A DNA stretch of 64,000 nt. Origin: Cornus controversa (lineage: Eukaryota > Streptophyta > Magnoliopsida > Cornales > Cornaceae). The position numbers and the translations under genes are program-made. Location of the stretch: contig CM048845.1 of the NCBI GenBank assembly GCA_026545225.1, forward strand, positions 84,223,033 to 84,287,032, written 5' to 3'. The notes beneath the pieces are model-generated. The model was given only the letters and a program-made list of their open reading frames with translations, did not search any database and was not told the DNA's origin. Shown here piece after piece: positions 6,590 through 61,527 of this stretch. Each line of letters opens with the position of its first letter. The first letter of the stretch is position 1.

Positions 6590-6606
6590 CCACTGCTATT
6601 TATTAG
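6590..6606 (-). promoter_or_regulatory. Probable TATA element of GH5 copy A
   Basis: On the minus strand the sequence CTAATAAATAGCAG lies about 75-85 bases before the ATG at 6520, a normal distance for a plant TATA box plus a short leader. No other core element is evident. Confidence 0.4.
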
Positions 6607-8029: not shown

Positions 8030-9948
8030 TTATTTCATATTAGTCTTAATAAACTTGAACCACTGTTTCTGTGGGTTTTCACCACTACATGAAACATCTT
8101 CAAGATCATCATCCAAACAAAGACACTTCTTGGTGTAAAGTACTGAGGAACTGTAAGAGTCCCACTCCAAACACAGGGTCTTCCCTCTTCCATCTTTAGC
8201 AGCCAAATGCAGATTTGACGCTGATACAGGTTTCCACAGACTCTTCTCACTTGTACAATCTTTCGAGAGCTTCGCCGGAAGCCCCTCGCCGATAGCATTC
8301 AGGCAATAAGAAGTACCCATCAACCTGATTGGACTTCCTTTACCATCTCCATTTCCATCGTAGCTCCACCGGCTCGATTTCTTGCAATAGCTTGTATAAA
8401 CATCACCCCCCGAAACTTGAACACATTGACCACTCTCTGGATGATACAATACATTATACACTGGATATTTTGAAGATGGATCTGCATCAAAATAAAATTT
8501 TTAATTATTATTATTTTTTTGTCATTGTAGCGTCTAAAGAGAGTCAGATACACACAATCTTAAACGGTTAAAAAATAAGACTAGAAATCGTAACACATAC
8601 ACATACACCACACAAAGACATTAGTAAAAGTAAAGTGCATTGATTGAAGCATACCATGGATCATTTGTTTGATGAGATGTAACCTGACTAGGATTGATGA
8701 ATTTCTAAGATTATTCCAATCACCATCATACATTCCATAACTCTCATCTGTCCCAATACTGCCATCCCTTACCATGTAACTTCCCTGTAAAGTCCAGTAA
8801 GCCCAATCTATATCTTTGTCAGCCACATAAGCCATCAAGCAGGTCAGATAGCGGTTATCTCTCTCGGTTCCGCCAGTCTGATCAATCCCAAACTCACTCA
8901 AGAACAGAGGATAAGGCTTTTCGTGGCTAACCAAGAACCCTCCGGATTGGTTATGGAACTTCTGGGTAACACTGTAACACTGTCTATTAGGTTGGTTCAA
9001 CCAGTTGTCCTCAGAGTCACCAAATGAGTACCAATGTGACTCATACACCAACTTGTTACTCAAATCCACTTCCAATGGCCTTTCCTTTACAAAGCTGAGA
9101 TTGGTGTCAAATGCCAACCCTGACACTATCACTAGCACTTCTGGATTCACCCTGTGAATGGCCTCCGCACCCTCTTGCATGTACCGGTACCAATCATCCT
9201 CGTTCTGACGCGGGCCTCGTATCTCGTTTCTCATACTCATGCCCACCACCTATATAATGTCAAAATCAAATCTTACATATATATCTATTCTAAATAGCAT
9301 TGTCCATACATACAATGTCGAAATCAAATCTACCCATAATGAAAAAATATATATAGATTAACTCACTGCAGGATGGCCCTTGTAATGCTTAGCTACTGTA
9401 GTCAAGCCCTGTATCCATTCCTGGGGATGGAAGTACTTGTCTCCGAAAAAGCCATTGCCGTCGTCTTGACTACAACACCACTGTGGGAGGCTGACATGGT
9501 TGTCAAGGACAACCATGATATTATGTGCATGAAGTGCATCAACCACTGCTTTCTGGGCATCAATGAGTTTGAGGTTGAGGAGTTCAGGGTTGTAAAGTGC
9601 CATGTCTTGGGTGGCGTTTGTGAGTGTCCATTGCTCGAGAGATCGTGCCACGGTCAGGTGGCTATCATCAGGTCTGGTGAGCATATAAGTGGCATATGTG
9701 AGACGCACACAGTTGAACCCCATTGAAGAGATGTTAGCTGCAATGTGCTTCAATGGTTTCTTGTGAAGACCCTCTGGTACCATGACATGGACGTGGCCGG
9801 GCCAATTGACACAGGCCAACTTCACCCTCTGCCCTGTCTTGTCATCAACTATCCATCTTGAGCTTGTTGAGAGAGGCAGTGAATGAGAAAGACATACAAA
9901 CAAGAACACAAGAAAAGTTAGGAGGATCGTTTGTGAGCCTAGCTTCAT
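8030..9948 (-). CDS. GH5 glycosidase with ricin-B-like tail, copy B
   Basis: A tandem paralogue of the neighbouring GH5 gene, also predicted to be secreted and to act on wall beta-glycans. Exons are 9948-9367, 9249-8655 and 8481-8030, giving 542 aa. The first exon has exactly the same length (582 nt) and both introns sit at the same positions and phases as in copy A, which shows that it arose by gene duplication. The signal peptide is MKLGSQTILLTFLVFLFVCL. The catalytic Glu residues are in RNEIRGP (E203) and FLSEFGIDQ (E313). The C-terminal trefoil domain carries SGQCVQVSGG, CLNAIGEG and QWFKFIK. The catalytic domain is clearly similar to copy A but the surface loops and the C-terminal sugar-binding part differ more, so specificity may have diverged. 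No defect is seen. Confidence 0.92.
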
Positions 9949-10021
9949 TTTGTAAAGAGACAAACGAGAATTGAAGAAGCCAAGAGAAGTATAGAGACAA
10001 ATGAGCTCATGTACATACATA

Positions 10022-10037
10022 CATATATATATATAGA
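10022..10037 (-). promoter_or_regulatory. TATA-rich core promoter of GH5 copy B
   Basis: A TATATATATATAT run read on the minus strand sits about 75-90 bases before the ATG at 9948, matching the position of the TATA-like element of the paralogue. A simple repeat at this place could also be coincidental. Confidence 0.4.
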
Positions 10038-10550
10038 CATATGGGACCCTATATCGTATCTATCACTATCTTGATATGGGAGAAAACTGATAACTCACTT
10101 ATCCAAATTTTGATATGTTTCAAAACAAGAAGTTGTTGAATAATCAAACACTAATTTTAAGTAGTAAAAATTTGGTTTTGAACAAAATTCCTATCTGACT
10201 TGTGGATAGCAGTTTGGATAAACGTAACTTTCTGAAGATCCTATTTGGTGGTTTCAACACTGGATCAACATATATAATCAATATCCTATAAAACGATAAA
10301 GAAGACCCTGGTTTTTAAATTTTCGTTTTTCTTTATTCTTAATACAGTATTTATCATCAACTTATATTTTCATATATGCATATGATATAATTTAAAGAAA
10401 TCGGAAACGGGTTCAGGGTTTTATGGTACCGTCTTTTCAATGACGTTTGTTTTCTTCTTTAAGCGTGGTCTTGTAATGAACTACTATTTTTAATTGTGCT
10501 TGTGCATAACCAACAGTCTAATGTTCGAGTTTAATGAGGGATCTATTTTG

Positions 10551-27050: not shown

Positions 27051-28460
27051 GAATGGTCTTTCCTCCTGTTCGTGTCTATCTTGCTCCTCCTTTAGGGGAT
27101 GTGTGAACTCAGGTATAAAGTCTGCTATTACTTGGCCCTTTATCATCGTCCTTGGCCTGTACCGGATGTCAAATTCTTCTAGCTCCATGGACCATTTCAC
27201 CAGTCGTCCAGAGGTTTTGGGCTTGAAGAGGACTTGACAGAGTGGTTGATTAGTGAGTACCATTATTGTGTGTGCCTGGAAATACGGCCTGAGTTTTCTG
27301 GCCGACATGACTAAAACGAATGCCAGCTTTTCAATTAAGGGATATCTCCCCTCCGCCCTCGAAGCACTTTATTGGCGTAATAAACTGGCTTCTACACCCT
27401 TCCTCTTCTCGTACCAACGCGGAACTGACTGCTACAGGGGAGACTGCTAGGTATAAGTACAATTATTCCCCTACATGCACGCAAGATAGCAACGGGGGTG
27501 AACTGAGATAATGCTTTAGTTCAGTTAAGGCTTGCTCGCACACTGGTGTCAACTCGAAGGCTTGCTTGGGAGATCAATCTGCTCAACACTGCCACCTTTC
27601 CTGTTAACTTCTATACGTCTTTGATCGTTCTGGGTGACTTTGTATCTAAGATGGCTTGTACCTTCTGCGGGTTGGCTTCTAGTCCCCTTTTGCTGACTAA
27701 GTAGCCTAAGAACTTTCCGGATGAAACTTCGAAAACACACTTACTGGGGTTGAGCTTCATTCTGTATCTTCAAAGGATATCAAAGGCTTCCTATAAATCA
27801 TCCAAATGGGTCGATGCTACCCGATTTTTGACGAGCATATCATCAACGTACACTTCTATGTTTCTGTCGATTTGCTCTTTAAACATCTTGTTCACCAATC
27901 TTTGGTAGGTTGCGTTAGTATTCTTCAAGCCGAATGACATTACCGTGTAGTAGTACAACCCTCTTTCTGTTATGAAATATGTTTTTTCTTGGTCTAACGG
28001 CAACATTGGAATTTGATTATACCCCAAGTAGACATCCATGAAGTTGAGTCGCTCGCACCCTGCCGTTCCTTCCACTAGCATATCGATCCTTGGAAGGGGG
28101 AATCTGTCATTTGGGCATGCTTTATTCAGCTCAGTGAAGTTTACACACAAACGCCACTTGCCATTAGACTTTTTTACCAGTATCACATTCGCCAACCAGT
28201 CTGGGTAGTGAGTTTCCTACATGAAGTTGACCTTTAGTAGTTTATCCACTTCGTCAGAGATTGTCAAATTTCTCTCGGGGGCGAATGTACACCTTTTCTG
28301 TCTAACAGGTTTAACGGCTGGGTCGATATTCAACCGATGCATGGAAATGGCCGGGTCAACTCCGGGCATGTCCTCGTGGGACCAAACAAATACATCCCTA
28401 TTAACTTTGAGAAATTGAACGAGCTCTTCTTGAGCGGCGGGTGAGAGTGACGATCCCACA
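27050..28460 (-). pseudogene. Reverse transcriptase/RNase H zone of the Ty3 element
   Basis: Typical Ty3 RT motifs are visible: FTELNKACPNDRFPLPRID, YLGYNQIPM, MSFGLKNTNATYQRLVN and the catalytic YVDDMLVK. The linked RNase H region with FKPKTSGRLVKWSMELEEFD follows. It is part of the broken fossil. Confidence 0.9.
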
Positions 28461-34367: not shown

Positions 34368-36020
34368 TGTACTCGGTACTTGTTTTTGTATTAAATATTG
34401 TCAATTTAGTTGTTTATTTTGTTTAACATAATAATTTTTTGATTTATTTGTTGCTATTGTTGTTTTGAGTCGATAGTCATCTAGTGAAGTTTCTTTGTGC
34501 CATCTGTTTTTTGATCTTTTGTGTGTGTGAATGTAGATCTGGTTCTTCTTGGATCGAACATGAAGTAATTAATTGATGTTTTATGATATTAAAAAGCAAG
34601 TCTTCACTATTTTAAATTGTGTTGATAGGATTGGTTCTGGAAAGGTTTAACTTTTTGCTTTATAAAGGTTGCTGGGGTATGGCACCTTTCCCCAAAGTCG
34701 AAACTAAACAATTACTAAAAGAATACACTCTAGTATATTTGCTTTTGCCTAGTTTTAAAAGAATACACTAATAGGATATAGGGTTTCTTTACTCTCAAGA
34801 ATGTAAAGTATCAATCACTCATTCTTGATTAAATTGGGTCCCACTTCCTATACGTGGTGGTTAACTGGTGATTAGGATGGAGATTAAATGGATATTTTTA
34901 AAAAGGAGACACCCAAAATCTTGTGGTTCTTAAAAATTTGATCCTAGCATTTCATTTCTGTGTTGTATCAACAATCTCTCTCTATATATATATTTAACAT
35001 ATAACACCTACATGGTGTATTGATGCAGCGGCTGATGTGTTTCTATGGAGGAACAAGAAAATATCAGCAGGAATCTTAGGTGGAGTCACAGCCATCTGGG
35101 TTCTGTTTGAATTACTGGAATATTATTTGCTTACTTTAGTCTGCCATGGTTTGATACTTGCTCTGGCTATATTGTTCTTGTGGTCCAATGCCACCACCTT
35201 CATTAACAAGTAAGACATTAATATGGCTGTCAAATCGGCTCTGTTTGCATTCATAATATATTTGTTTCTTAACTAAATCTCTTCATTGTTAGGTCTCCAC
35301 CGCGTATCCCTGAAGTTAATATTCCAGAGGAACCAGTTCTGGAGTTTGCCGCTGCCTTGAGGATCGAAATAAATCGGGCGTTTGCTATTCTGAGGGATAT
35401 TGCATCAGGAAAAGATCTGAAGAAGTTTCTCTGTGTATGTTTGATTTCTTTCTTGTAATTTGAATACAAAACTATGCTTTTGTGTTTGCACTTCATATTT
35501 GTTATTACTCGTGCAAAACCCCATTTCACAAAGAACCCTGGTAGTCTTCAATTCGGTAAATTGAAGATTGCATAACATTTTGACTTTTCAGTTCCAAAAA
35601 CTGCATTCTAGTAATTTAGTAGTTCTTAGGTATATGATTTCAATATTTGGACTTCATGTTGACCATTTTTATGGATATCGTGGCTCTAAATAATCAGGTG
35701 ATTGCTGGATTGTGGGTCTTGTCAATTGTGGGGAATTGTTGCAACTTCTTGACCTTGTTTTATATAGGTAATTTCAATCCCTGGTTTACGTGTGTGTTAG
35801 TCCTTTTTGGTGTTTGTTGGTTCTATCATTGATATTTCATAATTTATGAACAGTTTTCGTTTTGCTCCACACGGTGCCTGTGCTGTACGAGAAATATGAG
35901 CACAAATTGGACCCATTTGCAGAGAAGGCAACGGTTGAGTTAAAGAAGCAGTATGCAGTCTTTGATGCAAAGGTTTTGAGTAAGATTCCAAGGGGACCAT
36001 TTAAAGGCAAGAAGGCTTAG
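33981..36020 (+). CDS. RTNLB: Reticulon-like protein, RTNLB1/2/4 type
   Basis: A reticulon that inserts as hairpins into the endoplasmic reticulum and shapes tubules. Arabidopsis RTNLB1/2 also affect receptor trafficking and interact with Agrobacterium VirB2. Exons are 33981-34167, 35029-35209, 35293-35434, 35698-35767 and 35854-36020, which sum to 248 aa with all phases agreeing. The N-terminal 40 residues are acidic and Ser-rich ([19 protein letters not shown]). The conserved [20 protein letters not shown] and [11 protein letters not shown] then begin the reticulon domain. Two hydrophobic hairpins follow ([19 protein letters not shown] region and [19 protein letters not shown] region), separated by a 60-residue loop with [20 protein letters not shown]. 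The C-terminal [14 protein letters not shown] is lysine-rich. The first intron contains a roughly 50-bp (TA)n run (34315-34363). The gene looks complete and functional. Confidence 0.95.
34315..34363. repeat. (TA)n microsatellite in RTNLB intron 1
   Basis: A pure AT dinucleotide run of about 48 bases, likely length-variable between individuals. Confidence 0.9.
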
Positions 36021-37555: not shown

Positions 37556-40500
37556 CTACACATGGTAGTTCATGCCCACCCCGATCAAACTGATATGAGG
37601 AATGGTCAAGGTTACCACAGGTGCACGGCAGTTTTTACGTAGGAAAGAGAATGCCATATTAATCACAAACTTCTTTAAGAATGATGAATTCCTTCTTGCC
37701 TTTACACGTGAATGGCCAATTATATATGCTACCCCAGCACGCTTAGCTTCCACTAGCTCGGAGAGCTCTTCCTTGACATGCTGATAAACATGATCTGTAT
37801 CTAGCAATTTAAACTGGACGCGTCGTCTGTGGCTCAGATGGGGTGATTCCTGCTCATACATAGACTGCAACTTCTGCAATGTGACTGACTTGCCGTTGGT
37901 CACAGTGGTTAAGAGACTTGAACTGCTACTTTCTTCGATGCCAGCACATTCTGACATCACCAATCTTGTCCCAAACTTTTCGGATGTCCTCACAACTGCC
38001 ATCCGGCCATCCACAGAACCGTCTACAGTTCCAGAACCTTCTGCTTCCAGTTTGATGAACTCTGCTAAGCACATCACAAGATGGTTCTCAAAATCTTCTT
38101 CTTCCTTGTGGACATCTTTGTAGCCGTATCGAACAATGCAACGATACATCCTGTAAGCTTTGGGTCCAATCCGACCAATTAGATATCGTTCCTTGTGGGA
38201 GACGTAAGGAACAAGAACAGACTTGACACAGACGAAGATGACCACCTGGTGAATAGCTGGTAAGTTGGTTACAAAATCGGAAAATATGGCTGGAACTCCA
38301 GTAGCCAACTCAGTGTAGATGAGGCCAATTCCTGGAACTCTAACAATCCCAAGACTGGGACCTAATGTGAGTATCCATTTCATTGATACCTTGTTTTGCA
38401 GGTCATATAAATACTTCCGCCTGGTCCCATAGTGCCACACGTGCATAATTAACATCAAGACTGAAGAGAGCACAAGTGGGACCCAACCACCTCGAGGAAT
38501 TTCCATACAAGAAGATGAGAGGTAGATGGCCTCAATTGATCCGAAGAATAAGAGGAATAAAAGGGAAATTATAAGATTCTTATGCTGTACAAAGATGATG
38601 ACTATTGACATCAAACATGTTGTCACCAATGCATCAGCGATGCATGCAATCCCTGAAATCATATACCACATATAAATTTCAATACAAATAATGTGACAAG
38701 GGTTTTACTATATTTGGTTACTATTCTTCTACAAAGTAATATATGGCGTATGGTTAATATCTAGGCCAATACAATAACATAAGAGGGGGGTTGCAGGATC
38801 CATATTTGATAGGTGAACCAAAATCCCACCAACCAAAAATCGGAAGTGTATTGAGCATTACATATTGACCTTAAAGAATATATTCTGCTGACCAGAATAG
38901 GGAGACAAGTGAGGCTCGTAGGAACAGCTGAGCACGTCAAGTTGGATAAGTCGAGGGAAAATTCTAAAGCTTTAACCATCACATGTGCATACATTGTGAG
39001 GGGTCATACATTAAGCGTCTTGTACTCCAAATTTGAGTGTCCCACTTGGGTGATGTAGATGGATCGAACACTCAATTATATTGCCCAGAGTTCTAACCTA
39101 TTCGCTGCTGCATCATGCAAAAAGAGAACACCTACATAGTACTACTGATGTCTTCTTTATATACACACACACACATGAAATCAACAAATATATACACAGA
39201 TGAAAAGCAAAAAGTACATAAACAAGCACAAACGGATACCCTTTCAACCCTTTCAGTGAGATGATTAAACAAAATTATCATGATATTAGGCGGGTAAGTG
39301 AACTTATTCACCAAGTGTTTGCACACTTTGGGCCCCCTCCAATTCTCAGGCGTGCCAGACTCCTTGACTCGGACTCGGAGTATGGTAAACACATTCCCTT
39401 GGTTTGTCCTTAGCCATGAATGGCGGCCTGAGTGGAAGTGGAAATGGTTGTTCGTCAGGCGATTGTGAGGAGGCAAGGGAGATCCCTCCTTTGGAGTTGT
39501 AACTCACGCCCTGATAACAATGGCTTAAAATTTCGCCTTGTGGTTGGTGATCCCTCCTTCGGGGTTGTAACTTGACAAGTGGCACTCCATGTTCCCAATA
39601 AACATGGTTGCCAGCTCTTGGATGAGACAAGTGGCCTTGGGAATGATATTGCCATTAAATGCATGGCTGACACATATACATATAAATATATTCTGGAAAC
39701 TAAAGTCAATATGTATAGAAGCTGACCATTGGATTATGGCCGACATATCTTGAGGGCATGGAACCTACTTCGGCCGAATAACCCAAAGGTACGAAACGAC
39801 CACTTTGCTATTGGTTTGTCCTACGGCCGTAGACCCTTCGGCGGAGACCCCAAATACAGGTGAGCCCTATATTCGGGCATAGCCATACTATGATGACCCA
39901 AAATTTGCAGTATACATATTGGGTCTAGTTTCCCATGATTTGGGTGCAAACACTAAGTTATTTGGCTGCTCACCGAAATTTCCTAACTCCCCAGGCAGGA
40001 AATGTACAATTTAGGTTTTTATGAATGGAAGTTCAGATTCATAATTCCTTTCAAATGAAGTACAAGTTTCTAGTTTCAATATCATCTATGCTTATTGTTT
40101 CAAATTGCATTATTTGCCATTTATTGAACACTACTTTAAATCACCTTGCAATATGTCATTCCGAACTAATCAGAAAATTCAGGGTAAAAGACTCCAAGTT
40201 ATGACACAAAAAGAATTCAACGTTTATGCTACTAGATTCAGCATGTATATGCACATAAACACATACTGAATTAGATTTCTAGATTTAAAGACTCATCTTA
40301 TCAAAGAAAACTTACCATAAGCATTTCCTATCAGGGGTGTCTTCCGAAAACCAACAGTGACAGCCAAACTGAGAATCATAAGGATCCAGTTCATTTCTGG
40401 GATGTAAGTCTGACCAATCCATCTTGATTTGTGCACAACCTTGATGCGGGGAAAACATCCTAATGCATGGCATTGTTTGACAATCGAGAATGTGGCAGAA

Positions 40501-43500
40501 ATGACAGCTTGACTGGCAACAATGGCTGCCAGAGTTGCAACCACAAATACCGGCCAAAATACTGGATCTACAAAATACAAGAACATTGGTAACATAATAT
40601 ATAAAAAAATGTTTCTTTTATAAATTATTCATAAAGCGACTTGAAGTGATATTATGGGATGCATACTTGTTCAAGAACGATAAAGGAGAATAAACACAGG
40701 TGAATTTGGAAAAAAATTCTGTCTATATTAATGAGGAGAAGTTTTTGAAGTGAAGAACATTGCTGCAGAATAGGTCCATTCCCCCTAGACAAACACCCAA
40801 TAGATGTATCCTATCACCTCCTTGGGTGCACAATTATTGGATTCTACTGGAAATTCTGTCAAAAAGCCTTCAGCAGTGCTTAGTGCTTGTAATACTTCAC
40901 CTGGAATTGATGCATAGAAGCTTGAAGATATTGAAGAGAAGTTCTTTGAAAGAAATGCAGCCTGCCCCATGAATTGAAGCACCAGACAGGGGTAAACAAC
41001 ACAAGAAAATGAAACCTGCAATAGCAATAAATCTTTAGAGTTTGACTTGCATTGGTGAGCAAAGTACATAAAGAGAAACACAATGACAAAACCAAATGGA
41101 ACTACTGATCTAAGCCACAAGTATAAGCAGTAGAAGCCAGTTCTTGTTGCAGGGTAAAATTTCAGCATAAGTTTCAGTTATCAAAAGAAATCATCTAGGA
41201 GTTCACTCAACTATAGATCATGAAGAACCTTCTATAATAAAAGGATTGGATTCCACCATTCCATGAATTCAGTATATCAGCAAACTTAAAATTTCATTCA
41301 GCATGCAACTTAAGTTTGAGGAGATAAGAAACTATAGGGTTATAGAACTTACGTTAGGCTTGTTACTTTTTTGGGCAAACTTTCAGCAATCCATAATATA
41401 TTTCAGTATCTTTTCTTTAATGAAAATAACTTAGAATGTAATGATTCACATTGGCTATGCCCATTCCCACCTGAGCTAAAGAAACTAGGCCAAGTCCCAT
41501 TGCATATTTGCATGACTGCAATTGTCAAGCTTTAGCAGCATACTTCATCCTTCCTGTTGACCTAGCGAGGATAATATTGTGTAATAGTCGTACTTTTTCA
41601 GAATACATGCCTTGATCAGAGATCTATTATTGACATCAGGATTCCTGATTTTTAGAGCTATTCATGAGTATCGAGAGCATCAAAGATTTAGATGTTACAA
41701 ACATCTCAGTATATCCAGTTACTCCAGTATATAGGGGTAGCAATATCTATTTCTTCTATTCATTTAAAATGTCAAAATATCAACTAATATATATACACAC
41801 ACACAGACAGATATATTGCCAATATCTTCAAATATTACCTGCATGATGCTGACGCTACTAATATATAACAGCAACATATGGAGGTTTCAATCTGACAATC
41901 TCTATCATCTGTGAGTCTGACTTTCTCTTTTACCACCTCCCCGCCTCCCTTTATGCAAAACTATTTTACCATGCAATTCACCATACTCCTATCTCTTTTC
42001 TTCATCAGTATTTGCGTTATTACTTTCTTTGTTGATGAAAGTTGCTTCCAACATTTCTGCTTCTCTATTTTTTCTAATGATGATGCTTTTCTCCTTTAAA
42101 CTACTCTCCCTGCCCCATAAAAAGTGTCACTTTTGAAAAGTCAATGTTAAAATTTGAAGCTTTCCTAAATTGTCCTAAGTTTTGAATTTTTTTCAAAATT
42201 AAAGATGTACATGCATAAACATTTGGAACTAGTTTTGAAATGTCAAAAGGAGACGAGCATTAAATGCATAATTGCTTAAACTGGAACAAAGGGAGTAATG
42301 TTTTCAAGGCTTTTAGGTTTCTTTGTTAAAGTCATTTGTGAGAACATCAAGTTTTTTGTGAAAACTAGAAAATGCAGTGCATAATTAAATATTGGGATCT
42401 GATGGATGCTTATTCATAGATGATGATTATTACTAGGTTGGAATAAAATAACAGATTCTTAATATTAGTGGTTATAATTATGATCAATCCATTATATTGA
42501 GCTACAGCAAAGAATTACCATAGTATCTGGAACAAGAAAATTTTATAGTTTCAGTGATTATATGAACCAAAGGTGACTGTCCATTATATTTACCAGAATG
42601 TAGTAAACAGTTCTAGCAATTTACTGTACTCTTTCATCATTATATATTTGGATGCTTAAAATAACTAATTACTTGTGAATGTGTTATTTCAGCTCCCCAG
42701 TAACCACTTCAATCTAAACGTGACATTCTGGGTGCATATAATTGTTCTTTGTAATATTTTAAGTTTTATGGACTAAATTCGCTTTTGCAATTCCCTAATG
42801 TTTCATTTATTTCTCCTTGTTTTTTAAATAAAAAAATTTGATTTTTGTATCAATATCGACATCAATCAAATGATCAATCCATCATTATATCATTATTTTA
42901 GGGCCTCAAGAGTCGAGATAACATTGATATTTAGAACCCGGCTAGCAATCCAGTAATATTGAACTTTGAAGAGGAATAAGTGGTCCATTAGCTGTAAGGT
43001 GGAAAAGAATGAGTATTATGTCATCTGTACTGAAGGGTTAATTACTTAATAATAGAACAGTATTATTCAACCCCATGTTCAAAACAGCTTTCTTTGATCC
43101 TGTGAAGCCACAAAAGAAGAAACCAATGCTTAGACCTATGTCAAAAAATCTCTATATATTGCTGCAAGTTAAAAGTATTAATGTGAATGGTAGGTTTTCT
43201 TTCATGACTCCAAAGCATGAATAATTGTGTTATTTAGCAATCACTGACTTCCCATACCCTTATTGATGCAGTTGTGAAGTGGCCAAGGCCCAGAAACATA
43301 GATCCAGTTCCTGAAGATGACAAGAAGAACCCACATTAGTTCGGAAACTCAATTTAAATACATAATAAAAAATAAATAAAAAACGTCAATGGACTACAAC
43401 TGCAACATTCACCTGCTGTACACAGAAGTATTCCTCCAAGAGAAAGCCAACCATCTTTTCCAGTGTTCCTAAAGAACTTGTAAATATAATATGGAGAAAG

Positions 43501-46500
43501 AGCCTTGTATATTCTTGGGTTCCACTCAATGATATTATAGATGCCAATAGCAGCAATACACAGCAACCATACGATTACAATCGGAGCAAACAAGAAGGCC
43601 ACCCTATAGGTGCCAAAATGCTGCAAAGCAAAGAGGCCAACCAACACAACACAAGCAATAACAACCACAATACCTGTGTAGGATGCATAAGTGTTAGCAA
43701 CCTGAACAACAACAATGCTAATACAATAGCAGAAGAATTCTAGTAGAGAGTTCATAGTATTGACACTGATAACCGGAAAGGAACTTATTGATGCCTTTTC
43801 TTTTCTTTATATATGTATATATTATTATTATTATTGGAATCACTTCTATTACATATAATTAAAACTGGACAGTATGCATGAAGTGAGTGTAGTGAAAATG
43901 CGAATGTTGATAACTTGATATGGATGTGAAGCGAGACAAGAAAAGGTAGAACTAGAAATGAGCACGTTCATGAGATGGTTGAAGTTGCACAATTGTTGAT
44001 AAAATGAGAGAGAAATGATTAAGATAGTTTGGGCATGTGCATAGAAAACCACTAAGTGCACCAGTTAAAAAGAATGACACACTCCATATTGACGGTATTG
44101 CTAGGGGAAAGAAATGGCCAAAAGTAACATGGTAAGAGTTACTAATGAAGGATATGATAATATGTGATTTGATTGAGGCTATGGCCTAAGATAAAGCAAA
44201 GTGGAAAAAAATTGGAAAAAGACTTTTTTGAGTTGAGTGTGTTATGACTGAACATTTTTGTCCATCTCATATTGTAGCCTCTACCACCAAAAAATCACAT
44301 TTTATATTCCTTTAAAATCATATCAGAACTTTTCCAAGAAATTAGAGCCATCCTCTTCTTTTCTACTACAAATATTTTATGAATAAAATTTTGTTGTCAA
44401 ATTCAACTTCCATGTTTCTATTATTTGAAACTCAGAAGTTTGGCTTTTGTAAAAAATTGTTGATGCCTCAGAGAGATAAATCTCCCAATCATGGACCATC
44501 TCTCTCTCTCTCTCCACTAAAATGTGTCTTGACTTCCTATGGTAAAATTCACGTTGAATTTGGCATCTGCAAATGAAAGGAGGTTTAAATAATATTATAA
44601 TTTTATGCTACATTTGGTAGGATGGTAAGGGAGGGAGGGAAGAGGGGAAAGATGGAGCATGCTTTCATAATTTTGTAGAGTGGAAAGTAAGAGAAAGGGG
44701 GAAGAGATGGGATGATGGATGAGACATCCCTCTTGTCCTATCAATTTGCTTCCATCCAGAACTAGATGGAAGAGGAAAGAGAAAGAAGGATATTTATTGG
44801 ATAAAATTCAAAAAGATGTTTTTTTTTTATATTTAAAATTAAAGAAGATGTTATTATGCTCATTTATTGACTCCATGTTATATTGTGAGGGTTGTAGTAG
44901 TAAAATAATATTCAAAATCTACTCTTCCCTTCCCTCGTACCAAACAGTGAAAGGTCTCACCACATTCCTTGCCTTCAACTTAAACAAACAGAAGGAGGGA
45001 AAGAACATTCCCTTCTCTAGAACTGTCTCTTCCATTCCTCCTCCTTACCCTTGCATCCACTTTTCCATCTTCCATATAGTTCCTCAAGAGAATTAGCCAT
45101 CATTATAACATTTTTTTCCATTGTTCCATAACTTTTGAATATGGTTTTACTGCACTCAAGGTCAAGCCTTTGATATGATTTGATTTTTGGTTTGATGTCT
45201 TCATAAGCATTTGCTTTTGAATATCATTTTTAGATTATAAAACTGAAAAGTTCCACTCACTGTGATGCAAATTCTCAGCTTGAACTTGCAGCCCTTCAAT
45301 GGAAGCTAACACTGCAAAAGACCAAATTTCTACTAGTGTGAGAATATTAGTAATGAAGGCAAAAGGAAACATATGGAAATGAATCAGTTTGATCCCAAGT
45401 GGATTCTAAGAGAAGCTTGAAAAGGTGAAGACAATATAATTACCAGAAATTGAAGGTGTGAGGACTCCATAACATATCATTAGGCAAGTACCAAATAATA
45501 CCATAAGAAGTAAACCATTTCTAGTCTTTTTATGTTTCTCAACAAATCTTTTCAATGGCGAGGAAGGCATATTCCTGTTTAAGTAGCCGGGTTTATGATA
45601 TGTAGATATCTCCTCATCTGCTGCTTGATGGTTAGGCAGTAAACTCAATTTTACATGTCTACAAATGAGTGAATACAAAGCAAAAGGTCCTCCTGCAAAT
45701 AATGTGAACAGATATTTTATGCCAAAAACCATCAAAGATAGAAAAGGAAAATGGACTTGTAGCATCATCTGAAAGCTTATCATCTTTTACCTTCACCATT
45801 ATCATCTGCATTTAACGTAATGATCACATACTTGAACAATGGAAGAAGGGTGAGAGTCCAAAATATCAAGGAAAATGCCCCAAATATTGCATCCTCATTT
45901 TGGTGATGATGCAACTCCCCAGAAAATGTACTTCTATAAACATAAAGAGGGGAAATGCTCAACGCACCATATGCTAAGCCAAAACTCTGATATGCTAAAA
46001 GGAGAACATGTTTACGTTGACTTTTACGTTCAACCTGCTTGAACAGAAACAATGAACTACATAAATGTTATGAATCAACAGTATTCCATGAATCAACTAA
46101 ATCCCAACTCAAACCATGTTTAGAAGCCCATTGGAAGATACATATAGGGCAATATGCTAGTTTCATGAAGGATAATTGAATGGGTTGATAGATCAAACCA
46201 TTCGCAAGCAAGGACGGGAGCCACATGGGGCCCAGTGGGAGCAGCTGCCCCCACTTGATTTTCTATTTTAATCTTGTATATGTGTTTTAGAATAAGTACA
46301 AAGTTGTCCTTATAAACTTCTTTCCTTATCCTTCAAAATTTTGCCACCTCTTTCACATGAATCAATCCTTCTCTTTTCCCTTCTCTCTCTCAAGCTCCCT
46401 TTGTAACTCTCTCCCCCTCGCCTCCTCTAGAATTAAGACCTCATTTCTGTTTCCAAAAGAGTGTTAAATTTACAACTTATCCTTTGAATATTGACCCATT

Positions 46501-49405
46501 ATACTGCTGGATTCCTCCAACGGTGCTCTGCTATAGCAGGCAACATATAAACTATAAGTTCTAAGCATTTAATGTCTAGGTAGGACTTGATGGATATCTA
46601 ACGTAAACGACAGGAAGAAAAATGTTAACTTTAGTCAAGAAAGACCTATCTGCGTCTAATCCTTTTCTGCCATTCAGCTGCATATAGAGCAATATCCTCT
46701 ATTCACAGGCTTTAGTCTTTTACCTCACAATTTAAAATTTTTCACTCTTCAGTGCCTTCCTCTTGCCTTTTTTCATTATAAACTTGAATCAAAACAATCG
46801 TGCTTTGCTGGATATCCAAAAACATCGTCCTAACTCGATTATTCATTACATTTTTTTGTTATGACATTCATTTATTTTAACATCCATTTTCAGTCGTATA
46901 CCATAGAGCACAACTGACTAGTTCCCAATATAAATAGTTATTTTGTATTGGGTTAGTGATCCGTAATCATACAACAACTAAAAGCACTTCCCTCCACTTC
47001 TTTTTATCCTGTAGTTTTATTCTATGGGTAAAATTTGCTAAAATATCCTCCTCCCGATGGATAATAAATTCCAAAAGGATCACTTTCAGCTAGAATATAA
47101 AGAAAGACAAATCAATCTTGAAAAAGAATAAGCTGATTAAAGGAGCTATGCATAGAACCTACTATGAAAGTTCAAAACTAACTCCCTGGACAGAATTTTG
47201 GCATAGTCATATGCAAAATCAGCCACTAAAACAGCCAAATGAAGTCATATAAACTGTTGGTGATCTAATCAAGCATAAGCATCAACTTAAAGAACATATC
47301 CAAAAAACTAAAGTGTAGCCAAATGATTTCACATCTAATAGTTATCATTCTTCAAGTATCAGGAAAGAAAAAGACATCATATGCCAGAAAATAAAGATGT
47401 AGCAAAACAAGATATTGCATTTACAAAACAACCAAAAAATCAACACTTACAGTTTCATTCAAGGTTGTCAGCATCGGGATTCTATGTAGGATCGATTTGG
47501 ATTCCATAGAACCGGAATCGGAGAATCAGATCGTGAATCGTAAGATTCTACAAAATTAGTACAAAAACAATTCAAACTAACTTTTTAAACAATGATACCT
47601 CTAAAATATAGCAATGATAAGCACAAAACACAAAAATATATAAAAAAATACCACTCCAAACATATACTAGGAGAATGTAGCTCCAAAGGTAGAGCTCTCA
47701 TGCCAACTATGCAACTTCTAAATTTTTGAAATTGTGTGAGGAGATCAAGGTTCGAAACTTCGAATCCTTGCATTCTTTTTCATGCCAACTATGTAATTTA
47801 AAAGTTGTGAACTCTGGGATTGCCAATATAGAGCAACAGATGGAATTACAAAATTCAAACAGGGATAAACAGAGTTAAAAACAGAGCCTATGGATAAAGT
47901 GATAAACAGAGTTACAGAATACAGAGTCACATACAACCAATGAACAAATTGTAGAAGTTCCCGTGTTAACAACTTATTAATGTTCAATTAGTTCTGTTTT
48001 TCCAACGACCCACAGGATCAAAGATTCAAAATCATCAAAGTACTCCTAAAACAATAGATAAGTAAAACCAACATTATTAACTAATAAGTAATAACTACAA
48101 AGCAATCTTTTTCCCCAAATCATCCCATGTAATACAAATAGAATTAAGATGCAAAACAGGCCAAGAGTTCTCATGACATAAGTGTTTTAAATTTTTAATC
48201 TAAGTTTAGTGTAATCTGATAGAAGAGAAAAGACTTGCAAAAAAAAAAACTCAAACGAGAGGAGAGAAATGGAGACTGGAGAAGAAGAATTAAGAAGATG
48301 TGTACTGTGAGTCTGTGTAGTTGTGTACCTTTGGCCTTTTGGAAGTTGAAACACATCCGAAGTGAACAGAGAGACCTTGTCGGTGCTGCTGGAGGTTGCC
48401 GGAGCTGTAGGAGGTCGACAATCGCACTATCGCAGGTCTTCAAGACTTCCAAAAGAAAGAAAAAAGAAGTGGAGAAGTTGATACTTGAAAGTTCAAACAC
48501 ACCGATCAAAAGAGAGAAAACAGAATGGCCGAAGTGAAAAGAGAGTGCTTTTGGAGCTGCCGGAGCTGATGGAGACGGGAGACTAAAGAAAGTCTAGGGC
48601 TTCTTCGAGCGTAATGGGGCTTCGAGTATATATCGTATATCGTATCATCTGTGACTCTGTATAAGTTACGAGAATTAACAGAGCTTTTTTATGGGCTTAT
48701 TGGGCTGCTCAGCCTGTGTGGGCTTTCTATTATATTGCCCAGTATGTTTCTAAAGACCCAAAACAATAAATTTAACCCAAAGAGCTCAGAACGCCAGTAA
48801 AAATAGAATTCAAAAAATAATTTTTATAGTGTGAGTGGAATTGTAGATAATTGTACGATTCCACGGACGAGTCTACAAAATTGTAGAGAATCGTACGATT
48901 CCATGGACGATTCTACATAATTAACGATCTGACTCGTTTTTCACATTTTAAATAATAGAATCGTGTGATTCTATTATTCAATCCACGATTTTGACAACCT
49001 TGGTTTCATTTGCAATTATATGCAACTTCAAATTGTTTCATTTGCAATTATATGCAACTTCAAATTGTACATCATCCTCCTAAGTTGATATGTAGTTAAA
49101 ACCTCAAAATTCTGAGAAATTCTACGCTTTAATGATAAATTGTATTATCCGATTGCAAACCTAAACAAATACTTAATTGATTGATTTTTCATTAACGTCT
49201 CTTACATGAGATGTGCAGATATAGTGCACATTGTCGACGCGCGCACAATTTCTCACATATTTATGTAATTAGGATGTCGACATATTCAAATGACACAATT
49301 CAACATTTCTAGCTATATTGATTAGATCAATTTCTGTCATATTAGAAATATACATGTATAGAAATATAAATATATGTCCAATATAGGGTTCTAAGAGCAT
49401 ACCAT
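37556..49405 (-). CDS. KUP/HAK/KT family protein lacking the acidic K+ motif residues
   Basis: A multi-pass membrane protein of the plant KUP/HAK/KT potassium transporter family, closest in sequence to KUP2/6/8-type members. Exons are 49405-49403 (ATG only), 46034-45791, 45692-45444, 45311-45261, 43673-43413, 43310-43258, 41015-40901, 40567-40316 and 38652-37556. They are all GT-AG and in phase, giving 774 aa. The family signatures are clear: [69 protein letters not shown] and the cytosolic C-terminal domain ending VGMNYHV. Oddly, family motif GDLSISPLY is GALSISPLY (A25), IGDGVLTP is ICYGVLTP (Y157), and SEAMFADLGHF is [11 protein letters not shown] (G272, G277). The corresponding Asp/Glu positions in E. 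coli Kup (D23, E116 and E229) are reported as essential for K+ uptake. The usual hydrophilic N-terminus is also missing, and the one-codon first exon is an inference. It is either a transport-dead homologue or a decaying gene. Confidence 0.85.
39270..39900. other. GC-richer unidentified insertion in the last KUP intron
   Basis: This part of the 1.66-kb intron is clearly less AT-rich than its surroundings. It contains a spaced direct repeat (GATCCCTCCTTTGGAGTTGT near 39481 and GATCCCTCCTTCGGGGTTGT near 39550) and CGGCCGTAGACCCTTCGGCG. It looks like part of an old transposable element, but no ends or coding motifs identify it. Confidence 0.35.
43880..44245 (+). mobile_element. Degenerate 3' part of a plant L1-type LINE
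   Basis: The plus strand follows the well-known C-terminal end of plant LINE reverse transcriptases. The pieces are AAAATGCGAATGTTGATAAC, a segment that would encode an RWFGHVQ-like motif (TAGTTTGGGCATGTGCATAG), CCACTAAGTGCACCAGTTA, GACACACTCCATATTGACGG and GATTTGATTGAGGCTATGGC. It ends near GAGTTGAGTGTGTTATGACT. The copy has frameshifts and stops, for example just after the CGAATG block and within the RWFGHV codons, and only the last 350 bp or so remain (5' truncation is usual). It lies in the KUP intron between the 45261 and 43673 exons, antisense to the gene. Confidence 0.75.
44590..45085. mobile_element. Possible MITE-like purine/pyrimidine element
   Basis: A purine-rich left half starting near CATTTGGTAGGATGG and a pyrimidine-rich right half around CCTTCCCTCGTACCAAACAG look like the two arms of a diverged inverted repeat, within a KUP intron. 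The purine-rich part resembles the tandem duplication at 31801-32143. The ends are not resolved. Confidence 0.35.
46190..46262. other. GC-richer transposon-like scrap in KUP intron 1
   Basis: GACGGGAGCCACATGGGGCC followed by CAGTGGGAGCAGCTGCCCCC is unlike the AT-rich intron and contains a short palindrome (GCAGCTGC). It resembles fragments commonly found at plant transposon ends. No family is assigned. Confidence 0.25.
47460..49002. mobile_element. hAT-type non-autonomous element with captured sequence
   Basis: The ends are CAAGGTTGTCA and its inverse TGACAACCTTG. They are flanked by a perfect 8-bp duplication GTTTCATT (47452-47459 and 49003-49010), so this is a hAT-superfamily insertion of 1543 bp. 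Subterminal regions are full of GAATCGTACGATTC-like inverted words (47510-47545 and 48845-48990), as is usual for hAT transposase binding. There is no transposase. The stretch 48235-48620 is different in character: GA-rich, with CCGGAGCTG repeats, resembling a gene's leader and first exon. It may be captured host sequence. A tRNA-like SINE (about 47675-47785) sits inside. The whole lies in the first KUP intron. Confidence 0.85.
47675..47785 (+). mobile_element. tRNA-derived SINE-like copy nested in the hAT element
   Basis: TAGCTCCAAAGGTAGAGC matches a tRNA A box and CAAGGTTCGAAACTTCGAA a B box, about 60 bases apart. The word CATGCCAACTATG occurs at both 47700 and 47782, which might be part of the repeat's ends. 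It lies inside the hAT-type element. Confidence 0.45.
49003..49066. repeat. 32-bp tandem pair at the hAT insertion site
   Basis: Two copies of a 32-base unit beginning GTTTCATTTGCAATTATATG lie head to tail at 49003-49034 and 49035-49066. The hAT element inserted at the start of the first copy, so its target duplication GTTTCATT belongs to this repeat. Confidence 0.85.
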
Positions 49406-53249: not shown

Positions 53250-54590
53250 GCTGACTTGCTAAACTACAAAAGAAATGTCCGGTCTAGTAATGGTGAGGTA
53301 GACAACACTACCCACCAACTTCCGATATAAACTGGGATTAGCAAGTAAATCACCCTCCTCTTTGCGAAGCTTGACATTCAATTCCATGGGAGTATCAACA
53401 GATGTAGCCTCCTGTAGGCCAGCTGTAGCCACCAAGTCACTAGCATACTTATGTTGATTGAGGGAAATACCAAATGGACTACGATACACCTCAAGACCGA
53501 GAAAATATGTGAGAGATCCAAGATCTTTCATGTGAAAGGACTCAGATAGATGAGTCTTGAGCTGACCAAGTAAAATAGAATTGGAACCAGTAATCACAAT
53601 ATCATCAACATAAACCAAAAGAACAATAAAACCCATGTCTGATTTTCGAAGAAACAAGGAAGTGTCATACTTGCTCTGCTTGAATGAGAAGTGTAATAAA
53701 GTAGTTTAAAATTTATCAAACCAGGCCCTCGGAGCTTGTTTGAGACCATAAAGGGAGCGACAGAGCTTACACGCATGTGATGTCGGAGAGGGAAACTATC
53801 CCGGGGGTGGCTTCATATAAATACACTCTTTAAGATCCCTGTGAAGAAAAGCATTCTTGACATCCATCTAATGTAGTGGCCAATCATTGGAAGCAGCAAG
53901 AGATAGAATCGTACGAACAGTGGTCATTTTAGCCACAGGAGCAAATGTCTCTTCATAATTGACACCATATTCCTGATTATTTCCAAGTGCAACAAGCCGA
54001 GCTTTATAACGATCCAAACTTCTATCAGATCGAACCTTGACGGAGTAAACCCATTTGCAACCCAGGGGAACTATGGTGGAAGGACAAGGTGCAATGTCCC
54101 AGGTGTGATTGGCCTCTAGAGCAGCAATTTCTTCTTGCATAGCTTGTCGCCAACAATCATGCTTGACAGCATGTGAGTAGCATGTGGGAATATCAAAATT
54201 GGACAATGTAGTAGTAAGAGCAGAAATAGAGTGGCCAGAAGAAAAACCATACCAATCCGGAGGTACAGACACTCGAGAAGAGCGACGTACCAAGGACTCT
54301 GGAGGTGCTGCAACTGACTGGTTTTGGAGCATAGTAAGATCAGATATCGGTGGAGCCACCGGAAGACACTGTGGGCAGGAACGTCTTGTATACACAATAC
54401 CTGGTTTAAAGTGAGAGTTGACTTGATGAAGATCTGAGAACTGTTGCTCAAATGAGGGGAGGACCACAGTAGAAGAAGAGGGCAGAGAGGACACAAGAAA
54501 GAAATATTGATTTTCAAAGAAAATAATATTCCTAAAAATGCGCGTCCGATGTAAAGTAGGATCATAGCAAACAAATCCCTTTTGACACAC
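53250..54590 (-). pseudogene. Reverse transcriptase zone of the copia element (fossil)
   Basis: Copia RT motifs are clear: AMQEEIAALEANHTWDI, GCKWVYSVKVRSD, YKARLVALGNNQEYGVNYEE, TFAPVAKMTTVRTI and the catalytic YVDDIVITG. It is part of the broken fossil. Confidence 0.92.
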
Positions 54591-54599
54591 ATTATATAC

Positions 54600-55910
54600 T
54601 AAGAATGCACATTTAACAGATTGAGCAGATAATTTATGTTACTCATGAGGAGGTAAATAGACAAAACATACACAACCAAATATACGGAGATTATCATAAC
54701 TAGGTTGTTTAGCAAACAAGCGAAAATAAGGAGACTCCATGTGTAAGACTTGGGAAAGTAAACGATTAATCAAGTGAGTAGCAATTTTTAAAGCCTCGAC
54801 CCAGAACATGGATGGAACAGAAGATTCTAACAAGAGAGTACGTACCACATCAAGAAGATGTCAATTTTTGCATTCAGCTACTCCATTCTGTTGGGGAGTA
54901 GCAGTACATGACGTTAATGAATAATACCTTTAGAAGCCAAGAATGCCTGAAACTCAGTAGGCAAATATTCACCACCAGAATCTGTACGTAATGTCTTACT
55001 AGTCACAGAATATTGATTCTTAACATACTCTAAAACCTCAGTGAAAGTACGAAGAACCTCAGATTTAGAACGAAGAAAATAAACCTAAGTGAATCTGCAA
55101 TGATTATCAATGAAAGTCACAAAGTATTTAAATTTTTCATGTGAACTAACCGGGGAAGGTCCCCAAACATCACTATGGATAAGATCAAAACAATGAGAAA
55201 CTCTACTAGCATGCAAAGGAAAGGAAAGAATTTTGTTTTTACTAAGTTTACAAGAATCACACTCAAGAGATAAAGAAGAACATTCTTTATTACCAAGAAA
55301 ACTATAGTGCAATACATGAGATAAGATCTGAGTATTGGGATGGCCTAAACAACGATGTCACGCCATGCTCAGATCAAGAACATTATTACAAGCAAAAGAC
55401 TGAATAGAAGAAACTGGAGAAAGTGTTAGAGTAGGTAAAAATAGTGGAAACAAGTGCCCCACTTCAAGTCCCTTCGCGATCGGTTCCCCCATTACCTGGT
55501 CCTGCACAACACAACCATCACCAGAAAAATTAATAGCACAATTGTTATCAACTAATTGACCAACAGAGATAAGACTCGTAGAAAGCTGAGGAGCAAGAAA
55601 CACATCAGGAAATTTAGAAGAGACATCTCCTACAGCAGCTATGGGCAAAGAATTACCATTGGCAGTCTGAATGGCAGATTGACCAGCATAGGGCCGAGCA
55701 TGACACAGAGCGGTGGGAGTATTCGTTATGTGATTAGAAGCTCCCGAGTCTACATACCAAAGTTTAGTAGAATCTTTACCTTGAAACCCCATTGCAGATA
55801 ATGCCGAAATTAACATTTGTTGCACCATTTCTGGTATGCAGTAATTTGGTGTAAAAGGTGCAAGATCAGGGGAAGCACTTGAGGAAGAGCCATGTGCGAT
55901 AAAAGTCACT
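54600..55910 (-). pseudogene. Protease and integrase zone of the copia element (fossil)
   Basis: The zone shows a protease-like WYVDSGASNHIT motif, followed by the pre-integrase and integrase core patterns (CDSCKLSKNK, FDLIHSDVWGPSPV). It is a fossil and broken. Confidence 0.9.
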
Positions 55911-57307: not shown

Positions 57308-57960
57308 TAGATTGAATATGATAAGCTGCCTCCCAAAAGGAAAAAGAAAGAACTAAATATACATGTAGATGAATACATATATGCATGAATCATCAACCCT
57401 AGAATGTCCACTAAAATTTTGAAATTTCTCCTAATGTTAAAATTATAATGACCACTACTATCAACAACACCACCACCACATCCAGCAGGGGAAGATACTT
57501 CGAGAGATCAAACGTGGCGGTTCAGAACCTCATAGCCCTAATCTTTCATTGTCAGATTCTAATTCTCCATCCATGCAACATTATTGAGGTTAGGCATCTT
57601 TTTATCCAAGTTTGTATGTGCATCTTTTCTGCTATTATTGTTGAATTATTCTTTTTCTCTGTATATCATATACTGACCTGACATACTTTCTACTCCTAGT
57701 TGCATCAACAACTAAGTCGCACTCTCTTCTTTAAATCACTTTCTCCTTCTCCAACTCAGTCCATCACAAAAAAACAAATACCATTACTTCACTCAAACTC
57801 ACCCCTGCAGCTCTGGCTAGCCTTGCTAGCAAATTTTCTTCTTGTCCCTTCAACTGGTTCAATTGTATTGTGCAAAGCATTTATTAGTCTTGAACTGCTT
57901 TACCATCTATTCAAGAAGGTTTGTCAATTGAAAAAAGTTGGAAGAGTGCTTCATTGGAAA
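57308..57960. other. Upstream region of the ALMT gene
   Basis: This 650-bp stretch lies between the copia insertion and the ALMT start codon and must hold the proximal promoter and leader. No clear TATA box was chosen. The frame runs open upstream of the ATG at 57961 for about 260 bases but contains no earlier in-frame ATG, which supports the chosen start. Confidence 0.45.
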
Positions 57961-60900
57961 ATGAATGGAAAAAAGGGTAGTTTTCAGATCAACATCCCTT
58001 CTTTTACCAAAGCTAAACTGCCAGAAACTGGGAAACAGCTCGGCAACCATGGCTTCTCCTGGAAAGGATGGATTTGGAGTGTGTGGGAATTTGGCAAAGA
58101 AGATAGCAACAGAGTAATATTCTCATTTAAAGTGGGTCTTGCTGTTTTCCTTGTGTCTTTGCTCATACTACTCCAAGCACCTTATCAAATATTTGGCACC
58201 AACATCATCTGGTCCATCCTCACTGTTGCCATAATGTTTGAATATACTGTTGGTATGTATATGCATACATTACACATGCACATATATTCATTGTAAAGTC
58301 ATAGACAGTCCTAAAATAAGATTGGCATTCCATAAGTCATACCCATGTATTTTCCACAAGAACTAGACCATGTATAGCAAACATTTATTTACATGCACAA
58401 ACAAAAGTATTCGAACATATACTGAATTATATACATGCATCCTACATGCTGAGTATGTATGTAGGTACATACATACTACTAAAATTGGCAAATTATAGCT
58501 TATGTTCTCGTTATAGTACACCTGCATGCAAAACTAAATTATAACATCCTGGGCATATGCAAAGCTTAACTTTATTCTTTCCTGATATCAATTATGGATA
58601 TTTATTTCTTAAGGTGCAACATTTAATCGAGGATTTAACCGTGCACTTGGAAGCTTGCTTGCGGGGATCTTAGCCATTGGTGTTGCTCAGTTGGCCTTGA
58701 GCAGTGGTCGAGTTGCAGAACCTATCATAATTGGTTTCAGCATTTTCTTCATTGGTATGTCACTTAAAATTTTCCAAGTATAAATGAAATAAATCCATAA
58801 TATATTGCTAAGAAATCTTGTTTAATATATTAAAGGGGCTGTCACATCTTTCATGAAGCAATGGCCATCCCTTGTGCCATATGAGTATGGGTTCAGGGTC
58901 ATACTTTTCACCTACTGTTTGATCATAGTTTCTGGATATCGGATGGGGAACCCGATTAAAACATCCATGGATAGGCTCTATTCAATTGCCATCGGAGGGA
59001 TTGTAGCAGTTCTAGTTAATTTGCTCATTTTTCCTATATGGGCTGGTGAGCAGTTACATAAGGAGCTAGTTAATAGCTTCGATTCAGTGGCTGACTCACT
59101 TGAAGGTAAACTAATTTTAGTACTTCCACTAATATTCCTTTCACTTCCACACAACACTATATATACATACATATATATATCTGTGTATATATTATATAGA
59201 CTATGGTTGTATCCATTTATCTGCCCCAAGTTTTAGGGCTGTAAGATTAGCCCTCATTGTTTCTTCAATATTTTATAGTAAATGTTATAAAAATATCATC
59301 TGGGTAATTGCAGAATGTGTTAGGAAGTATTTGGAAGATGACGGATCAGATCATCAAGAGTTCTCGAAGACTGTCATGGATGAGTTTCCAGATGAGCCTG
59401 CTTATAGGAAATGTCGATCAACATTGAACTCCTCTGCAAAACTAGAATCCTTGGTACTCATTTTCAAGTTAATTAGGATACTTCTGCATATTAGATAATA
59501 ACTAGTGAGAGCAAGCACTAACAGTGGTCTTTTTTTCAAGGCTAATTCAAGTAAATGGGAGCCACCCCATGGCAGGTTCAGACACTTCTTCTATCCATGG
59601 TCAGAATATGTTAAAGTTGGTGCAGTTCTACGTTATTGTGCATATGAGGTTATGGCACTTCATGGGGTTCTTCATTCTGAAATTCAGGTCTGTGCGTTCT
59701 CTCAATGGTAAATATATCATATGATATGATGGGTATCCATTGCCCACTTAACTTCATGATCAGTACCCTTTCCCAATTCCCAAATGTAAACAAAAATGCT
59801 GACAACTCAGGAATATACCAAAAGTGATGTTTACAAGATCTAGATTCCTCGTGGAAATTGAGATAGATTATATCTGATGGTCTAGAAAGTGGGAAGTAGG
59901 AAATGGTAAATGGGAAAAAATAGGTCTAAGAATCAAATAATTAGGAATCATATGGTGTGTTTGTTCTTATGCCCTGGTCCAGTATAACTTTATAAGAGCA
60001 GGTGGAACTGGAATATTTTGACTCTTTGGGTGGGGGCATCAAGGGACACATTCCTAAATACACAATTTTTAGGTTATTCTGTGAACAAAAACCATTTTCT
60101 TAATTGGGATACTTTCACATCAATAGAAAGATTCTGCTCAGTTTATATCCAAAAACAGAATGGATTTTAAATGACTTTAAGCTGTTCAATCACTCAACTT
60201 GCCAGGCTGAGTTTTTACACTATCTCAACAAAAACATTGCATGCTTGTAGTAACTATTTAACTAACCCTTCTTTTGCATATACTTGTAAGTAAGAGAGCT
60301 CGATATCTATGGCATCAACTGTTAATCAGCAACTGTAACAAATTTCAGAAGCTTACCTTAATTCCTCACCATTCCTTACTGCACTCAACCTGTCTTAGAT
60401 GTAACAGAACCACCCAACCCACACCAGCGCGCGCACACACTCCCCCCCCCCCCCCTCTCATTGGCAGTTAGATGATGCCAATTTGTGCATCTTCAGCAAA
60501 CTCAATAACCTTGGCTGCAGAGCAAGACGATGAGAAATATGATAAGATCATTAGTGCATTTTAGTCCATATGATGGTAACTGCATACCAACCTGACCTTC
60601 TGAAATATCAAAAGTAGAAAGCATTGAGCTTCACTTCACCTTACATGTTTCATTTTGTATGAGACTAAACTAAGACAAGAAAATTCAATGTCAAATGGGA
60701 CTGAAATAATACATAAGTGGGATTAAAGTAAGTAGAGTACTTTCATATATTGTTACATCAGAATTCAAATAAACTAGATGTTACAGTCATTCAGTGCTGA
60801 TAATCTAAGGAACTCATTCTGTGTATGTTTGTTGAAATATTTGGTGCATTACAATTGATATACATATCTTGTTATACATTTTTAGGCCCCCTACAATTTA

Positions 60901-61527
60901 AGAATCACATTCCAGACAGAGATCAAAGAAGCGACAAGCCAGGCTGCAGAGCTGGTTAGATCCTTGGGCAAAGACATAAGTAACATGAGGAGAAGCCCCA
61001 AAACCTCTCCACTAATAAAAAGGGCTCACATCTCAATCGAGAGACTCCAACAAGCTATAGACATGCATTCTTATCTCCTCACATCCAATTACGACATCCC
61101 ACCTGATAACTCCTCCAAGCCACTTTCTAAGCTCTCTCATACCTTCTCATCAACGCTTTATGACCTCTCAAATCAATTGCCCCAGCTTGATGAAAACAAC
61201 ACTCTTCAACAGAACTTGAATCCACCTACCCAAACCACACCTTCTGGGACTCTTCCACCACCACTGGCAGAGTCTTATCATGAGACAATGAGGAAACAAT
61301 CAAGAAGGCTCCATTCGTGGCCATCCAGAGAAGTGGATGCTTTTGAAGAAGAGGGAGGCTTTGGTACAGACTTCACTCCCAAGATGCGGGCACTAGAAAG
61401 CACTGCATCACTGTCACTTGCCACTTTTACTTCATTGCTTATTGAATTTGTTGCTCGTCTCGATCACTTGGTTGAAGCAGTTGATGAGCTTGGTAAGATG
61501 GCCAGGTTCAAGCATGAGGTTCAATAA
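57961..61527 (+). CDS. ALMT: Aluminium-activated malate transporter family anion channel
   Basis: A plant anion channel of the ALMT family, which carries malate or other anions across the plasma or vacuolar membrane. Exons are 57961-58252, 58614-58754, 58836-59105, 59314-59453, 59541-59687 and 60886-61527, with all phases agreeing, giving 543 aa. The N-terminal half holds about six membrane spans: FKVGLAVFLVSLLILLQAP, NIIWSILTVAIMFEYTVG, GFNRALGSLLAGILAIGVA, PIIIGFSIFFIGAVTSF, YGFRVILFTYCLIIVSGYR and IAIGGIVAVLVNLLIFPIW. The family motifs GATFNRGFNRALG, PIWAGEQLHK and WEPPHGRF are present. The C-terminal half is cytosolic and helical with the conserved end SLATFTSLLIEFVARLDHLV. Similarity is spread over vacuolar and guard-cell members, so I do not assign a subgroup. 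An AATAAA signal lies at 61662. No defect is seen. Confidence 0.94.
60449..60462. repeat. Poly-C run in the last ALMT intron
   Basis: A homopolymer of about twelve C residues follows a GCGCGCACACACTC run inside the 1.2-kb last intron. Such tracts are uncommon in AT-rich plant introns and prone to sequencing error. Confidence 0.8.

Follow-up and report, generated by a model that had tools for sequence, protein, structure and literature searches.

The KUP gene and its neighbours in the window

The window analysed here, a stretch of 64,000 nucleotides (C1:84223033-84287032) from a 771.7 Mb genome in 61 contigs, is plant DNA by its genes. It harbors a gene of the KUP/HAK/KT family, which was rebuilt from the window DNA as eight exons on the minus strand, running from 46034 to 37556. 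All acceptors are AG (8/8) and all donors GT (7/7), and 773 codons, free of internal stops and frameshifts, lead to a stop codon that ends at 37556. Residues are numbered from the first Val of the first clear coding exon and are set against those of HAK5, introduced below. The exons are listed by window position, with the basis of each in brackets.

49403-49405, minus strand: putative exon 1 of the initial annotation, ATG only, unsupported (bases read, upstream scan)
45791-46034, minus strand: first clear coding exon, with GALSISPLY, A24 against HAK5 D72 (splice sites, alignment)
45444-45692, minus strand: coding exon with ICYGVLTP, Y156 against HAK5 D201 (splice sites, alignment)
45261-45311, minus strand: coding exon of 51 bases (splice sites)
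43413-43673, minus strand: coding exon whose last residues read LLCTAG, A268 against HAK5 T309 (splice sites, column comparison)
43258-43310, minus strand: coding exon with G271 (HAK5 E312) and G276 (Asp in 15/15 paralogues compared) (splice sites, alignments)
40901-41015, minus strand: coding exon (splice sites)
40316-40567, minus strand: coding exon ending in NAYG, Y408 being HAK5 Y450, kept (splice sites, alignment)
37556-38652, minus strand: last coding exon, with the new Asp 415, the remaining membrane domain, the cytoplasmic K_trans_C domain and the stop (splice sites, Pfam, columns)

The Pfam domain K_trans (PF02705) was matched with 498.8 bits over model positions 1-452 of 454 and K_trans_C (PF22776) with 95.7 bits over positions 1-150 of 151, the curated cut-off being 24.8 bits for each. 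Membership of the KUP/HAK/KT family follows from both domains and from the place of the protein in the tree. The intact frame, the intact splice sites and the preserved family signatures described in an initial annotation of this DNA were thus all recovered, both domains being nearly full length, and no stop, frameshift or broken splice site marks any of the eight exons as part of a pseudogene. The same annotation had counted nine exons and 774 codons; eight exons and 773 codons stand, while its exon 1 amounts to nothing but an unsupported ATG triplet. Its exon 2 (46034-45791) contains no in-frame Met ahead of the motif, so that expression of the gene would require a further exon upstream. The scan for such an exon covered 6 kb upstream and candidates of 6-60 codons that begin with ATG and end at a phase-0 GT; none was a convincing first exon with a strong donor. 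Since the same procedure revealed no obvious first exon in C1c either, a paralogue that has the acids, the missing exon is a gap and weak evidence, but no proof of decay. Alternative exons carrying the acids were not found by a whole-genome protein search, in which seven matches in the window touched seven of the eight exons and none duplicated another; the 51-base exon was unmatched, so that very short alternative exons could be missed.

The KUP gene adjoins and converges with a reticulon-like gene (35031-35213, plus strand). A reticulon presumably lies next to a different KUP in Arabidopsis. Conservation of a reticulon-KUP neighbourhood elsewhere was considered and rejected, since of 29 reticulon matches two fall in the window itself and the remaining 27 are all farther than 0.2 Mb from every modelled KUP. 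A tandem pair of glycosyl hydrolase family 5 genes occupies 4357-10059 (minus strand); behind one of them comes a stretch that matches ricin-B-lectin weakly, below the cut-off. An aluminium-activated malate transporter (ALMT) gene with several exons is located at 57700-61527 (plus strand). Reverse-transcriptase stretches of two kinds (RVT_1 and RVT_2) at 27791-28216 and 53868-54638, both on the minus strand, are signs of retroelements flanking the KUP gene on both sides.

Acidic residues of the ion path

The window KUP was aligned residue by residue with a PDB chain named 'Potassium transporter 5' (25jn and others). This chain is presumably Arabidopsis HAK5, since ten residues named in a study of that transporter match its letters at a constant offset of 13 (PMC11450230). 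The alignment covers residues 10-621 and 702-772. Ala 24, Tyr 156 and Gly 271 of the window KUP stand at HAK5 D72, D201 and E312, the acids by whose equivalents a functional K+/H+ symporter was to be recognised, and the Asp of FADLGHF, a fourth conserved acid, is replaced by Gly 276. The claim that all three acidic motifs are replaced thus proved correct. HAK5 T75 and T309 correspond to Ile 27 and Ala 268; the Ile at position 27 is shared by the paralogue C6c, in which all acids are present. Kept are S28, Y31, T160, S164 and Y408, equivalent to HAK5 S76, Y79, T205, S209 and Y450. A new acid, Asp 415, was gained seven residues past Y408, at a position where 14 of 15 other KUPs of the genome have Val.

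For this comparison, 21 KUP loci were modelled besides the window gene (20, to which C5 was added). Five of these loci, being fragments or partial copies (C8c, C2b, C3p, C6p and C1p), did not enter the alignment, and C6a, misaligned in its middle, was dropped from the counts, which leaves 15 KUPs, including the frameshifted models C8b, C8a and C2e. Among these, the equivalents of positions 271 and 276 are acidic in 15/15, that of position 156 in 14/15 and that of position 24 in 13/15. Ten acidic columns are near-invariant, defined as at most 2/15 of the compared KUPs deviating; the window KUP lacks the four that lie in ion-path motifs and keeps all six that lie elsewhere (D78, D107, E133, E449, E563 and D588). 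Since D276 had been named by the initial annotation and not by the transport literature, a cleaner test was restricted to literature-defined pathway columns. The window KUP is changed in 5/9 of these against 19/160 other near-invariant columns (Fisher p 0.0033), and with a stricter cut-off in 3/7 against 11/117 (p 0.031). None of the other 15 KUPs reaches p 0.05 in the pathway-column test, the lowest value being that of C1a (4/9, p 0.054). The loss of the acids is real and non-random. That an assembly or consensus error altered the motifs is hardly credible: several nonsynonymous changes lie in different exons within a frame open over 773 codons, and nothing at the window KUP speaks for such an error, the frameshifts in assembled KUPs belonging to the paralogue models C8a, C8b and C2e.

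The effect of losing these acids can be judged from mutants of related transporters, as far as the consulted parts of the reports describe them. HAK5 D72A, D201A and E312A were each alone electrically silent in oocytes (PMC11450230). D23, E116 and E229 of E. coli Kup, which are called essential, are equated with D36, D117 and E233 of KimA, in which D36A/N, Y43A and E233A/Q abolish uptake, while D117A/N/E leaves growth unaffected (PMC6994465). KimA E233A still exchanges K+ for Rb+, whereas D36A abolishes even exchange (PMC6994465). The first and third acid positions are, on these reports, essential in HAK5, Kup and KimA, and the middle one in HAK5 and Kup. The initial statement, made for E. coli Kup, that the acids are needed for uptake accordingly stands, but the middle acid is not needed in KimA and can be dispensable in some family members (PMC6994465, PMC11450230). 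With the acids for both K+ binding and H+ coupling lost, the mutants of HAK5, KimA and Kup suggest that the window KUP probably performs no canonical K+/H+ symport.

Two readings would nevertheless leave the protein a transport activity. Substrate or coupling may have changed, so that, in the same LeuT-like fold, an uncharged site carries a solute that is neutral or anionic, or lets K+ leak uncoupled from protons. The retention of Y31, T160, S164 and Y408, the new D415 and the residual K+/Rb+ exchange of KimA E233A are in line with such a change, which we consider improbable, as KimA D36A loses even exchange, each of the three HAK5 mutants is silent (PMC6994465, PMC11450230) and another substrate has no positive support. 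Slightly less probable still is an active K+ transporter in which D415 or other residues compensate for the lost acids; the position of D415 and the tolerance of KimA to loss of its middle acid would fit (PMC6994465), but the acid that binds K+ and the Glu that couples protons have disappeared together.

Relatives in the genome and selection along the branch

The nearest of the 21 modelled loci, C1c (C1:128.78 Mb, L020), is 65% identical to the window KUP and has all acids. The two group together with an ultrafast bootstrap of 99 in a tree limited to the KUPs of this genome, and both models contain seven introns. We take C1c to be KUP3-like. The branches measure 0.33 amino-acid changes per site for the window KUP, 0.20 for C1c, 0.70 for both C1a and C2e, 0.49 for C8b and 0.47 for C8a. 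The window KUP resembles its family in the two nearly full-length domains and the kept Y31, T160, S164 and Y408, and differs from it in the replacement of three functionally essential acids and the Asp of FADLGHF. A recent duplicate was rejected as the origin of the gene, its nearest paralogue being merely 65% identical and acid-bearing. A pattern search of genome contigs from bacteria and archaea gave 11 matching stretches, none of which was confirmed as a relative.

Selection was analyzed with a purpose-written codon model, in which the membrane part extends up to residue 505. For the whole protein, omega was 0.10 on the window branch and 0.07 elsewhere, without significant difference (2dlnL 1.7), and omega = 1 was rejected along the window branch (2dlnL 37.7; 41.4 without C8a); with the frameshifted C8a dropped, the values were 0.098 and 0.072 (p 0.29). 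The membrane part gave omega 0.18 against 0.07 elsewhere (2dlnL 8.2), omega = 1 again being rejected (13.7), and without C8a 0.192 against 0.064 (2dlnL 9.5, p 0.002; omega 1 rejected, p 0.001). When C1c received its own omega in the membrane part, 0.156 was obtained for the window KUP and 0.106 for C1c, which indicates that part of the rise is common to the acid-bearing paralogue. Omega was not raised in the C-terminal part, where the length of the window branch is saturated, at or near the optimiser's bound. Saturation at synonymous sites (t_win 4.2-4.5 neutral changes per codon) makes these omega values rough, and each is an average over the whole window branch that says nothing certain on its last part. 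The dN/dS proposed in the initial annotation as a check thus came to about 0.10, and neutrality was rejected: averaged over its branch, the window KUP is under purifying selection.

The main rival to a maintained protein is a young pseudogene that has lost its first exon or promoter and drifts without having gained stops. The lack of a convincing first exon within 6 kb, the raised omega of the membrane part and the presence of dead-looking KUP copies in the genome (C8b and the fragments C2b and C3p) favor decay, whereas the open frame with its intact splice sites, the other near-invariant acids kept 6/6, the unrelaxed C-terminal part and the equal lack of an obvious first exon in C1c argue against it. 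In simulations with 0.01, 0.03 and 0.05 neutral changes per site, 37%, 6.7% and 1.0% of the runs remained without a new stop, and the probability of a residue change at every one of four given codons was 2.5e-7, 2e-5 and 1.3e-4, respectively, by an approximate formula. The losses of the acids therefore rarely fit a stop-free neutral spell and probably built up while the rest of the protein was still under selection, which points to selection that was relaxed or altered specifically on the ion path. A young pseudogene is thus unlikely, and the suggestion of a recently inactivated duplicate fits badly, given both the simulated drift and the distance to the nearest paralogue.

Among the other KUP copies, C8b (L014, C8:48720500-48724800) is apparently broken, with one stop and two frameshifts, and C2b and C3p (L028, L033) are fragments that appear broken as well.

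Retained fold and possible regulatory role

The reading that we favor, tentatively, is that of a KUP deprived of canonical K+/H+ symport in which selection has preserved the fold and the cytoplasmic domain. The proposal of a non-transporting homologue that is still maintained agrees with the low omega of the branch and with the acid-specific loss; the loss of transport itself is inferred from the HAK5 and KimA mutants. The protein is thus a candidate for one otherwise maintained over most of its history. Several observations count against the favored reading: the whole-protein branch evolves no faster than the background, part of the rise in the membrane part is common to the acid-bearing C1c, a second paralogue with an altered site, C1a, is changed in four of the nine pathway columns, and the first exon and promoter were not found in the 6 kb scanned upstream.

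How such a protein might act is suggested by relatives and by analogy. In the KimA dimer, swapped cytoplasmic domains hold the two chains together (PMC6994465, in the part consulted), and the window KUP could likewise pair with an active KUP. A chain with a dead ion path would then join an active one through the cytoplasmic domain, and the pairing would modulate the activity, trafficking or sensing of the active KUP. This partner or sensor mechanism would be the likeliest one for the protein, though doubtful in itself. Whether KUP/HAK proteins are K+ sensors too is an open question, raised for HAK5 (PMC11450230). KC1 is described as a silent subunit of plant Kv channels, inactive alone and acting in heteromers with active relatives (PMC8644596, as far as consulted). 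The likeness is by analogy only, that of a family member inactive alone and working with active relatives; KC1 belongs to an unrelated channel family, and heteromers are reported for KC1 but guessed for the window KUP. A maintained 'pseudo-transporter', stripped of the whole set of ion-coupling acids and confined to regulation or sensing as a subunit that dimerises via its cytoplasmic domain, would be the KUP counterpart of KC1 and is on this analogy conceivable, if doubtful. A natural KUP with fold and cytoplasmic domain and without the ion-coupling acids would set signalling apart from transport with no need of engineered mutants, and would caution against annotating each KUP gene as a K+ transporter.

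No description of a KUP lacking all three acids was recognised in the literature, which was searched by titles and abstract openings. Sorghum HAK5, HAK12 and HAK22 (PMC9478208) and Medicago HAK10 (PMC9509677) are reported to lack the GVVYGDLGTSPLY motif; the consulted parts of the two reports name no residues. The GVVYGDLGTSPLY motif is reported in all members in tea (PMC7430841), and some of its residues are reported as conserved in all members in strawberry (PMC12300644).

Altered motifs were also observed in other KUPs of the genome studied here. C1a (L025, C1:44055000-44061000), whose model of 760 codons is free of stops and frameshifts, carries Arg at the first acid (GRLSIAPLY) and changes at the equivalents of T27, S28 and T268, while the other two acids are kept. 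One pathway acid is missing from C2e (L022, C2:103888500-103898000; GGLVTSPLY), whose model carries one frameshift, and one from a KUP on C9 (L023-L024, C9:32591000-32610900; IAVGVVTP).
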